From NCBI GenBank assembly GCA_013140755.1, contig JABFSF010000026.1, positions 41,971 to 105,970 on the forward strand: 64,000 nt of DNA. The letters are read 5' to 3'. A model generated the notes under the pieces. The model saw only the letters and a list, made by a program, of their open reading frames with translations, was not told where the DNA came from and did not search any database. The DNA is from Methylotenera sp. (GTDB lineage: Bacteria; Pseudomonadota; Gammaproteobacteria; Burkholderiales; Methylophilaceae). Positions 55,324 to 59,134 of this stretch are shown in pieces; the first letter of the stretch is position 1; the number at the start of each line of letters is the position of its first letter. The translations under genes and the position numbers were made by a program.

Positions 55324-56172
55324 TTATTTGCGCACAAATTCAATGCGCGTATCAGAAATGTAACTAATGTTAAGCGCATTCTCTTCTTTAGCAGGCTCGC
55401 CAAATTTTGGATGATCAAACATCGGGTCTTCGTCCTCTTCTTTGGCTTGGCTTAAGTTTTTAAAGTCATATAAATCAAAATCAGCCAAGTGTGATGGTTC
55501 TACATTGCCAATGGCGCGAAAAATATTATTGATGCGACCTGGTTGCTCAAGCTCCCAAGTGTTGAGCATTTCTTTCACTTTTTGGCGTTGCAAGTGTTCT
55601 TGTGAGCCGCATAAATCGCACGGAATAATCGGGAATTCCATTTGCCGCGCATAGCTGGCAATGTCTTTTTCAGCACAATAAGCCAGTGGACGAATCACCA
55701 TAAACTCACCTTTATTGGTGGATAATTTGGGCGGCATGGCTTTCATTTTTGCGCCAAAAAACATATTTAAAAACAAGGTTTGCACGATGTCATCGCGGTG
55801 GTGTCCGAGTGCAATTTTATTCGCGCCCAATTGCTTGGCTGTGGTGTAAATAATGCCACGGCGTAAGCGCGAACACAATGAACACGTGGTTTTACCTTCT
55901 GGAATTTTTTCTTTAACAATTGAATAAGTGTCAGCCTCAACAATGCGGTAATCAATGCCTAGTTTTTCAAAATACGCGGGTAAAATATCGGCAGGAAAAC
56001 CTGGCTGTTTTTGATCTAAATTCATTGCAATGAGCTTAAACTTAATCGGTGCACGCTCTTGTAAAGCCAGCAAAATCATCAGCAAAGCATGCGAGTCTTT
56101 GCTTATTAGCACAACTCTGTCCGTTAACTTTGTGTAAAGTTCAATGAATTCATATATAAAATAAAGTATCAT
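55324..56172 (-). pseudogene. ttcA: TtcA (tRNA 2-thiocytidine synthetase) with lost N-terminus and PP-loop
   Basis: From about residue 35 on this is a clear Ttc[38 protein letters not shown] (cluster cysteines near 97-100), [33 protein letters not shown] (third Cys near 184). But the usual GDRVMVCLSGGKDSY segment is replaced by [16 protein letters not shown], three residues short and without SGG of the ATP-pyrophosphatase loop, and the ~50 residues that normally precede it are reduced to 17 unrelated ones ([16 protein letters not shown]). Upstream DNA becomes AT-rich at this point. Probably a non-functional or altered remnant; an intact copy elsewhere cannot be excluded. Confidence 0.75.
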
Positions 56173-56668: not shown

Positions 56669-56950
56669 CTATGCTTTGACAACTGCTAACTCTCTAACTA
56701 ATCTATTTAATAGTTCTTTTGATTGTATATCCTCGCCGACTTCTGAATATGTCATCAATAAAATGGTTATCGGATGAACTCCTAATACACCGGCTATATC
56801 CTCAAGCTTTTCTAATGTAATTGACTTCATACCTCTTTCAAGCGTGCTCATATAGGTTCTACTTGATACATCAGAAAAATCTTCTTGCGTAAGCCCACGT
56901 TTTTTTCTGATTAACTTTAAAGCCTTGCCAAATGATAAATTTATATCCAT
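56669..56950 (-). CDS. XRE-family HTH regulator
   Basis: 93 aa with a complete Cro/CI-type HTH in the first 65 residues: FGKALKLIRKKRGLTQEDFS, DVSSRTYMSTLERGMKSITL, EKLEDIAGVLGVHPITILLM. A short helical C-terminus follows. RBS AGGAAG before the ATG. Divergent from the unknown gene at 57037; the shared 86-bp gap contains a perfect inverted repeat that is its likely operator. Confidence 0.9.
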   Translation of the reverse strand: MDINLSFGKALKLIRKKRGLTQEDFSDVSSRTYMSTLERGMKSITLEKLEDIAGVLGVHPITILLMTYSEVGEDIQSKELLNRLVRELAVVKA

Positions 56951-56983: not shown

Positions 56984-57022
56984 AAATGAACACTATAGGA
57001 CTACAATCTATAGTGTTCATTT
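56984..57022. promoter_or_regulatory. Perfect 15-bp inverted repeat operator
   Basis: AAATGAACACTATAG (56984-56998), nine-base spacer, CTATAGTGTTCATTT (57008-57022). Lies between the divergent XRE gene and the gene at 57037, ending 14 bp before its ATG, with AAGGA following. Another small palindrome CTATATAG is at 56973. Most simply the autoregulatory binding site of the XRE protein. Confidence 0.75.
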
Positions 57023-57036
57023 AAAGGATTAATTAG

Positions 57037-57465
57037 ATGTTTATTACATCAGAAAAAACGAGAATTAAAAATCCATTTCTTGAAGTGGATCAGTATGGCT
57101 GGTCAAAAGTAGATTTAATGCTTTATGCACCGTTGTATTTTTGTAGATACATCGATTATATGGAAGGCGGAGAATTTACGACTACATCTCTTCTATCAAG
57201 AGTTTTTCAACTTCGTGATTTATCTAACATGTCTCATGTAACTATTAAAGATGTATATTTGATTAGTCCTGGGCACAAAAATAACACCGAGGGCTGGTTG
57301 ATGGGTAAAGTTTCCAAAATATTTGTATCAACAGATCATGAATCTAAGAATGGTCCGCCGGTATATAAGATCATTAAAAATGATGGGGCTGAGATTTTCG
57401 TTGATGAATGTTTCGAAGTTGATGATGAACAGTTAAGTTATGAAATGATTTTAGATGTAGGGTAA
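57037..57465 (+). CDS. Unrecognised 142-aa protein controlled with XRE
   Basis: Soluble, acidic protein (MFITSEKTRIKNPFLEVDQY ... VDLMLYAPLYFCRYIDYMEG; C-terminal IKNDGAEIFVDECFEVDDEQ). No domain recognised, no signal peptide. A good RBS (AAAGGA) and adjacency to the operator suggest regulated expression. AT-rich codon use matches the XRE gene rather than the core genes, pointing to horizontal acquisition. It might be an antitoxin-like, defence or phage-derived protein; no evidence decides. Confidence 0.65.
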   Translation: MFITSEKTRIKNPFLEVDQYGWSKVDLMLYAPLYFCRYIDYMEGGEFTTTSLLSRVFQLRDLSNMSHVTIKDVYLISPGHKNNTEGWLMGKVSKIFVSTDHESKNGPPVYKIIKNDGAEIFVDECFEVDDEQLSYEMILDVG

Positions 57466-57505: not shown

Positions 57506-57940
57506 TTATGCTTCAGGCTTAGCGTACCATGGTTTAAATCGTTGAGTTAGGCTAATTTGAGCTCTCAGAAGCCAGCCAACCCAACCATCAAAAAATGGAG
57601 GAAACTCATGGGCAGCATCATCAAGGGCTAACCACAACCCATCATATTTTATCAACTTTATCCAAGTTAAGATTTCTTCGTAGCGATAATAATTAGTCTC
57701 TTCATTGATTGGAATAATTGGGCATTTATCAACAACTCTTTGTCGCAAATCCTCACTGAAAATCTCTCTCAAAGCCTCCATTCTCTTTATTTCGCGCCAC
57801 GATGAAGAAATAACCACATCGACTTCCGGATACTCACGAAGCCAATTTTCAAGTAGCGGCAGTTTATTGAAATCGTCCGGATGGCCTGCCGCATTGAGTG
57901 CAGAGTGAAGCACACCGTCGAAATCTAGAAAAAGTATCAT
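57506..57940 (-). CDS. HAD-superfamily protein (HAD_SAK-like)
   Basis: 144 aa. Motif I DFDGVLH with nucleophile D6 and acid D8; VVISSSWREIKR fits motif II; LWLALDDAAHEFPPF carries the late acidic motif. The short capless form matches HAD domains of the Swiss-army-knife RNA-repair type (HAD_SAK family), predicted to act on nucleic-acid phosphates in conflict systems; the biochemical role is inferred only. Overlaps the upstream gene by 4 bp (ATGA), so the two are co-translated. Confidence 0.8.
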   Translation of the reverse strand: MILFLDFDGVLHSALNAAGHPDDFNKLPLLENWLREYPEVDVVISSSWREIKRMEALREIFSEDLRQRVVDKCPIIPINEETNYYRYEEILTWIKLIKYDGLWLALDDAAHEFPPFFDGWVGWLLRAQISLTQRFKPWYAKPEA

Positions 57941-58590
57941 AATGATTGATCTAAATTGGCTTCAGCAGGATATTCTTCAAACCAATTCACCCGACTATAT
58001 CTAAATTGATTAAAAGCTTCATCAATACCAATTTCGTGTTTAAGAATTCGTTTTACTACTACTAGCAATGCCGCGACATCTTCAGCAGAACGAATCTCAG
58101 CTGGCGCGCATAAAGAGACAGATTTACCATCTTTCCACCATCTCACTACAATACTTGGTTTGACAATAATGTCTGTTTCTTTCCGCACATTTTCTTGTGC
58201 GAGCTTTAGTACTGTCGCGAAAGCGTCACTATTTATTTTTGAGGGAAGGGTCAGCCATGCACTTATCTGCTTGCGAGATTTACCTAGTTTTTTATAAATA
58301 GGTACAACTGCACTCGTAAGCGCATTTGGAAGTTCGTCTCCAAAGAGAAGCTTCGCTTGTATACATGCTTGACCAGTGACTGCCTCTTGAAATGCCATGC
58401 GCGGGTGTTTCAAATATACGGTAATGTAACAACCATTTAACAGAAAGCTAAAGTCTGACCACCAGGTTAAATCAGTAGGTGCTATCTCGGTAAACGAGTG
58501 ATGACAGAAGATTTTATTCACGAACTCGGACTTTGTTGGTGTAGCACTTTTGAACGCACGCCTGATGTTTTCATAATAATGATTTTTCAA
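57937..58590 (-). CDS. Unrecognised 217-aa protein coupled to the HAD gene
   Basis: Soluble protein without signal or membrane segments: MKNHYYENIRRAFKSATPTK, LTWWSDFSFLLNGCYITVYL KHPRMAFQEA, then mixed alpha/beta with VRWWKDGKSVSLCAPAEIRS AEDVAALLVVVKRI. No domain recognised. Its TGA overlaps the ATG of the HAD gene, forming a two-gene unit convergent with the XRE-controlled gene. Could be the substrate-recognition partner of the HAD protein. Confidence 0.7.
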   Translation of the reverse strand: MKNHYYENIRRAFKSATPTKSEFVNKIFCHHSFTEIAPTDLTWWSDFSFLLNGCYITVYLKHPRMAFQEAVTGQACIQAKLLFGDELPNALTSAVVPIYKKLGKSRKQISAWLTLPSKINSDAFATVLKLAQENVRKETDIIVKPSIVVRWWKDGKSVSLCAPAEIRSAEDVAALLVVVKRILKHEIGIDEAFNQFRYSRVNWFEEYPAEANLDQSL

Positions 58591-59134
58591 TTAAAACATC
58601 CTCAGATTTGATTGCACGCTTGGCTTAACTCAACAGTATCTTCAAGTTGAGAAATCTCCTCTTTTGAGGAGAGTGATATTGAAGCTTGGTCACGACTCTT
58701 GCCAATAATATCATTCAAACTCTATGGTATTAAATCATTTATAAGTTTTGTTAAGTTATCCATTTCATGAAACTTTATCATGAAAATAACTAATCTAAGT
58801 AATTGATATGTATATACAAATCTATGTTTCTGTATTACTAATGCATGAATTAAAATTGCTACGATGGTAATCGTTCTGCGGGCTAGATACTAATAAATGT
58901 AAGGGATGCTTTATTCTGATAAAAATATGTTTTTCATATCAAAAAATATTTTGGTCGATGTTTCATCTACAAAGATAACTCCTCAGAGATATAACTGAAA
59001 AACAATTGCTGTCAGCTTGGGGTCAGCTTCGCGCTATAAGATGGAATCCATGGTGACAGATAAAGCAACAAATAAATCTCAGCCAGCAATTCTTGATGCA
59101 GTACCTATTATTACTTTATTCTTTGGAGGTTTAA
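58591..59134. other. AT-rich gap, right part of the island
   Basis: About 540 bp with no credible gene. It includes an inverted repeat TTTCATGA-7-TCATGAAA (58763-58785) with outer GTTAT/ATAAC arms, which may be a regulatory site or an old element end. Towards 59000 the composition returns to normal and leads into the Ala/Lys-rich protein gene with RBS GGAGG. Confidence 0.5.

Follow-up and report, generated by a model that had tools for sequence, protein, structure and literature searches.

What does a 217-aa protein of a Methylotenera species do beside the HAD protein whose gene it overlaps? The two genes lie in a 64,000-nt stretch of contig JABFSF010000026.1, which is called the window hereafter (Table 1). 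The original prediction had read them as a coupled pair, in which a HAD protein of the type assigned to Swiss-army-knife (SAK) RNA-repair systems is joined by an unrecognised protein, possibly its specificity or effector subunit. Here we trace the family of the 217-aa protein, to which we give the working name FAM, and ask how closely it is tied to the HAD.

An overlapping gene pair

Both open reading frames were recovered exactly at the minus-strand positions predicted for them, together with the ATGA that they share. Because 4-bp gene overlaps are common in bacteria, the coupling deduced from this ATGA holds for co-translation at most and does not show a complex; among the FAM loci, the window is the only one in which a FAM and a HAD gene overlap by 4 bp. 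The 217-aa frame is not a chance one, since it has full-length homologues (E down to 2.5e-27). Its TTG start is supported by the GAGG 9 nt upstream and by an MKN..E N terminus common to nearly all relatives; read from the TTG, the window protein begins MKNHYYE.

Table 1 Features of the gene pair and its surroundings, in window coordinates
Feature	Position	Strand	Basis and remarks
217-aa gene, window member of FAM	57937-58590	-	ORF list; TTG start
144-aa HAD_SAK_2 gene (PF18143)	57506-57940	-	ORF and Pfam profile; ATG start
ATGA overlap (stop TGA of 217-aa gene, start ATG of HAD gene)	57937-57940	-	Sequence
GAGG, likely ribosome-binding site of 217-aa gene	58600-58603	-	Sequence; function inferred
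XRE-type regulator	56669-56950	-	Sequence
142-aa protein, no known family, divergent from XRE regulator	57037-57465	+	ORF
Perfect 15-nt inverted repeat AAATGAACACTATAG between XRE regulator and 142-aa gene	56984-56998 / 57008-57022		Sequence
TtcA-like gene	55324-56172		N terminus reads ISKDS, without SGG of the SGGKDS PP-loop motif

Around the pair we found no integron and no simple repeat boundary; the nearby repeats are short and chance-like, except for an operator-like inverted repeat (56984-57022). Neither an Rfam family nor a tRNA was found at the pair's location. In an attempted empty-site comparison, sister genomes shared only the ttcA-like gene to the left of the pair. The ISKDS variant of this gene is also present in two sister genomes (G010 and G016) and the window genome carries another TtcA homologue on contig C34, so the variant has been inherited and is not an error of sequencing. 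The layout of an HTH gene with a divergent gene of about 142 aa recurs in eight further loci, including a second copy in the window genome (C119), and several of the eight contain ACTATAG/CTATAGT sites; at L073, a similar HTH and divergent gene lie next to a FAM gene. The arrangement has the look of a two-gene module that is conserved and previously undescribed.

A previously undescribed, mobile family

Relatives of FAM were found at about 84 non-redundant loci (81 picked automatically, with L061, L063 and L069 added), mostly in Betaproteobacteria and some in Gammaproteobacteria. They occur in 11 of 199 related genomes, in 12 of 399 genomes of the order and in 3 of 398 across the phylum; GTDB contigs hold 66 loci, and relatives also lie on six plasmids and in viral contigs, with none in the phage records searched. 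In the genome and viral contig scans only profile-derived queries were productive, single-sequence queries returning nothing. As the original prediction had it, the partner of the HAD resembles nothing catalogued: FAM and its relatives gave chance-level matches only against Pfam, NCBIfam, PHROGs, PADLOC and PDB sequences. These chance-level matches include one to PADLOC Cas2a, at E 0.009. The literature searched yielded no description of the family or of this gene. FAM is a real family, previously undescribed and horizontally mobile.

The family is recognised by a near-invariant MKN..E start and by HPR, GxSRK and PxExR motifs. The window protein forms a long divergent branch of the tree, at 21-30% identity to other members. 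It retains H31, W44, D46, H62-P63-R64, G103, S105-R106-K107, P163, E165, R167, Y198 and W203, and has lost the family-conserved H17, D45, R54, R55, W59 and W60.

Structure prediction, which had been suggested for the 217-aa protein, yielded a confident AlphaFold model (pLDDT 87.6, pTM 0.76), as it did for a mainstream member of the family (pLDDT 92.5, pTM 0.82). The two models agree in an N-terminal helix, three units of beta-hairpin plus helix and a helical tail. Foldseek searches with both models gave no fold match in the PDB (best E 0.27 and 0.14) and no counterpart among viral models (best E 0.065), and the TM-scores of the matches were 0.25 at most. Set against the PDB and the viral models, the predicted fold may be new. 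We also asked with hhalign whether the three hairpin-helix units go back to an internal triplication, and their sequences gave no support for it.

FAM changes operon partners

Within 6 kb of FAM, type I restriction (hsd) genes occur at 10 of the roughly 84 loci, Tn7-like genes at 14, on several tree branches, and HipA at five. The order of genes is HsdM-FAM-DUF1016-nucleotidyltransferase-HsdS-HsdR in Azospira, HsdM-89aa-FAM-Fic-HsdS-HsdR at L045 and HsdM-195aa-FAM-HsdS-HsdR at L108. Genes that overlap FAM by 4 bp include those for HsdM, DUF1016, HsdS, RhuM, SLFN_AlbA_2, WYL and TniQ; Bro-N is another direct neighbour, and an ABC-3C gene adjoins FAM at L105. Each context, such as restriction or Tn7-like, falls on separate branches of the FAM tree. 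FAM thus rides promiscuously in the operons of defence and mobile islands, with partners that change from locus to locus. Around the window copy, between 52 and 64 kb, we found neither hsd nor tni genes.

Two inovirus-like contigs (L042 and L043) encode Zot and secretin, with FAM downstream of the secretin gene.

The HAD protein and its relatives

The SAK assignment of the 144-aa protein held up, with 81.1 bits against PF18143 (HAD_SAK_2) at a cut-off of 27.5. In the alignment, motifs I (LDFDGVLH), II (SSSW) and IV (ALDD) are all present. Its closest relative (52% identity, in a genome of the same genus) has some six residues (EQLIIC) behind motif IV that the window protein is missing. The profile match covers positions 1-116 of 139; with this C-terminal gap, activity is plausible from the sequence, not assured. 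It is the only HAD_SAK_2 copy found in the window genome. The family is present in 27 of 200 genomes of the order and is widespread on plasmids (1893 records, mostly conjugative).

In Methylophilaceae, the closest relatives of the window HAD either occupy a conserved chromosomal site by themselves or belong to arrays, and none has FAM as a neighbour, which speaks against the proposal of a dedicated partner. The homologue at the conserved chromosomal site reads FLSFDGVLH in four genomes (L172-L175); with the first Asp of motif I replaced by Ser, it is probably no classical phosphatase. The arrays (L170, on G010:C82, L171 and L176), which look like arrays of mobile cargo, hold two or three HAD_SAK_2 genes alongside calcineurin-like phosphoesterases and further small genes of no known kind.

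FAM pairs with two kinds of phosphoesterase

HAD_SAK_2 genes lie within about 3 kb of FAM at 10 of about 84 loci (about 12%). FAM relatives thus occur mostly without a HAD, which the original prediction had itself named as evidence against its model, and the 217-aa protein does not appear to be the specificity or effector subunit of the HAD. The association is still denser than an even spread would give: among 49 FAM-bearing genomes with 25 HAD copies, 7 copies lie beside FAM against 0.04 expected, under a uniform-chance null that ignores hotspots and shared ancestry and is no proof of function. The HADs linked to FAM come from five separate branches of the HAD tree (the window; L082; L013, L015 and L072; L075, L078, L079 and L080; L076), so the pairing arose repeatedly. 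HAD and FAM share a strand within about 300 bp at five loci, the window included, and in Acidovorax loci the orientation and distance of the HAD relative to FAM vary. Some of the linked HAD copies are broken, such as that at L013, in which motif I is not intact. FAM and HAD may still be functionally linked.

At L082 (6830-7705), HAD_SAK_2 is fused to a part resembling the C-terminal domain of Xre/MbcA/ParS antitoxins (a weak match, below the Pfam cut-off). The fusion gene lies 250 bp upstream of the FAM gene, and a second such protein is encoded in the same genome (L143).

A second phosphoesterase, calcineurin-like and unrelated to the HAD, takes the position of neighbour at five loci (L061-L065), where the end of its gene overlaps FAM by 4 bp or stops 9 nt short of it. 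In the genome of the same genus, the gene directly upstream of the window HAD's closest relative encodes an enzyme 55% identical to that of L062, and in a sister genome (G019) another calcineurin-like gene overlaps a HAD gene by 4 bp. Each of the three, FAM, HAD_SAK_2 and the calcineurin-like enzymes, is therefore found paired with both of the others. No other observation hints as strongly at a shared role, which would probably centre on phosphate carried by nucleic acid or nucleotides. Only about 17 of about 84 FAM loci have any phosphoesterase nearby.

Proposed role of FAM and alternatives

We tentatively favour a role for FAM as an autonomous mobile accessory of defence islands that acts on or binds nucleic acid or nucleotide and whose association with a metal-dependent phosphoesterase is recurrent but not obligatory. 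FAM travels as a single gene and slots into operons of type I restriction-modification, of Tn7-like transposons, of HipA loci and of inoviruses, where it may work on its own as an accessory in conflicts with foreign DNA. A conserved basic and histidine site, with D46, H62, R64, S105-R106-K107, E165 and R167 as candidate residues, could be where it acts on or binds the nucleic acid or nucleotide. The neighbouring phosphoesterase (HAD_SAK_2 here, calcineurin-like elsewhere) would remove phosphate from the substrate or product of FAM. We give a role in conflict, as suggested by the neighbourhoods, about an even chance; that FAM and the phosphoesterase have a substrate in common is doubtful. A bolder version, in which FAM would found a new kind of conflict protein with an unsolved fold, and interchangeable HAD_SAK_2 or calcineurin-like phosphoesterases would undo its effect or act on its product, seems improbable.

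Several observations weigh against the favoured role. FAM has such a variety of partners that an overlap of 4 bp says little about function, and linkage without function can come from clustering in mobile hotspots. In addition, the window FAM has lost several conserved residues, and the window HAD lacks part of its C-terminal core.

Nearly as likely is a coincidence of hotspots, in which FAM and HAD_SAK_2 are unrelated cargo that gathers in the same islands and came to overlap in the window by accident. Such a coincidence would fit the predominance of FAM loci without a HAD, the frequency of HAD_SAK_2 itself on plasmids and in mobile-gene arrays, and the variable layout in Acidovorax. It accounts less readily for five separate HAD branches next to FAM, for the five close same-strand loci and for the pairing of HAD, calcineurin-like enzyme and FAM in every combination.

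A toxin-antitoxin-like pair, in which one protein would be toxic and its partner would protect, is suggested by the small size and the overlap of the two genes and their place in mobile DNA, by HipA, HicB, Xre/MbcA and an HTH gene near several FAM relatives, and by the fusion of one linked HAD (L082) to an Xre/MbcA/ParS-like toxin-binding domain, a match below the Pfam cut-off. Toxin-antitoxin pairs are, however, usually conserved as pairs; FAM has no fixed partner, with a HAD at 10 of about 84 loci, and stands alone at many others, which makes such a pair decidedly unlikely.

The reading from which we started, a dedicated two-subunit RNA-repair enzyme in which FAM confers specificity on the HAD, fares worse and is very unlikely. 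The ATGA overlap and the HAD_SAK_2 assignment are compatible with it, as is the independent re-pairing of FAM with separate HAD branches. However, neither an RNA ligase nor any other SAK module is adjacent to the pair (52-64 kb), a PF09414 RNA ligase was not found anywhere in the window genome, and its single RtcB is encoded on another contig. The closest relatives of the HAD, moreover, are solo or accompanied by phosphoesterases, with no FAM beside them, and most FAM loci have no HAD.

Finally, that FAM originated as a transposition accessory factor of Tn7-like elements and has since spread to other contexts is hardly credible, since the copies at the end of tni operons, next to TniQ, on several tree branches are set against about 70 of about 84 loci without tni genes within 6 kb, and against a window without them in 52-64 kb.

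Were FAM a factor of defence or counter-defence, it would be a widespread one in Betaproteobacteria that has remained uncatalogued, since no model of Pfam, PADLOC, NCBIfam or PHROGs detects it convincingly. Such a factor would also account for an unnamed gene that keeps turning up in type I restriction operons and Tn7-like cargo. It would further provide a set of partners with which to test the substrate of stand-alone, orphan HAD_SAK_2 phosphatases, which owe their present name solely to an analogy with RNA repair.

Comparison with known systems

The window HAD keeps motifs I, II and IV of HAD_SAK_2 and scores above the PF18143 cut-off; unlike the HAD_SAK_2 domains of RNA-repair proteins, it stands alone, neither fused to nor near ligase or kinase modules. 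The arrays of HAD and calcineurin-like genes (G010, L170) are comparable in that they hold the closest relative of the window HAD (52%) beside a phosphoesterase resembling that of L062 (55%), but the array L170 of G010 is devoid of FAM. In Tn7-like transposons, FAM lies directly downstream of or beside TniQ at several loci, as cargo does, whereas most relatives, including the window copy, sit outside such elements. The accessory genes of type I restriction systems (DUF1016/PDDEXK, RhuM, Fic, SLFN_AlbA_2 and Bro-N) adjoin and intermingle with FAM relatives, often with 4-bp overlaps; FAM matches none of these families, however, and around its copy in the window, in 52-64 kb, hsd genes are absent. 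We file FAM as a new family among a known kind, the accessory genes of defence and mobile islands.
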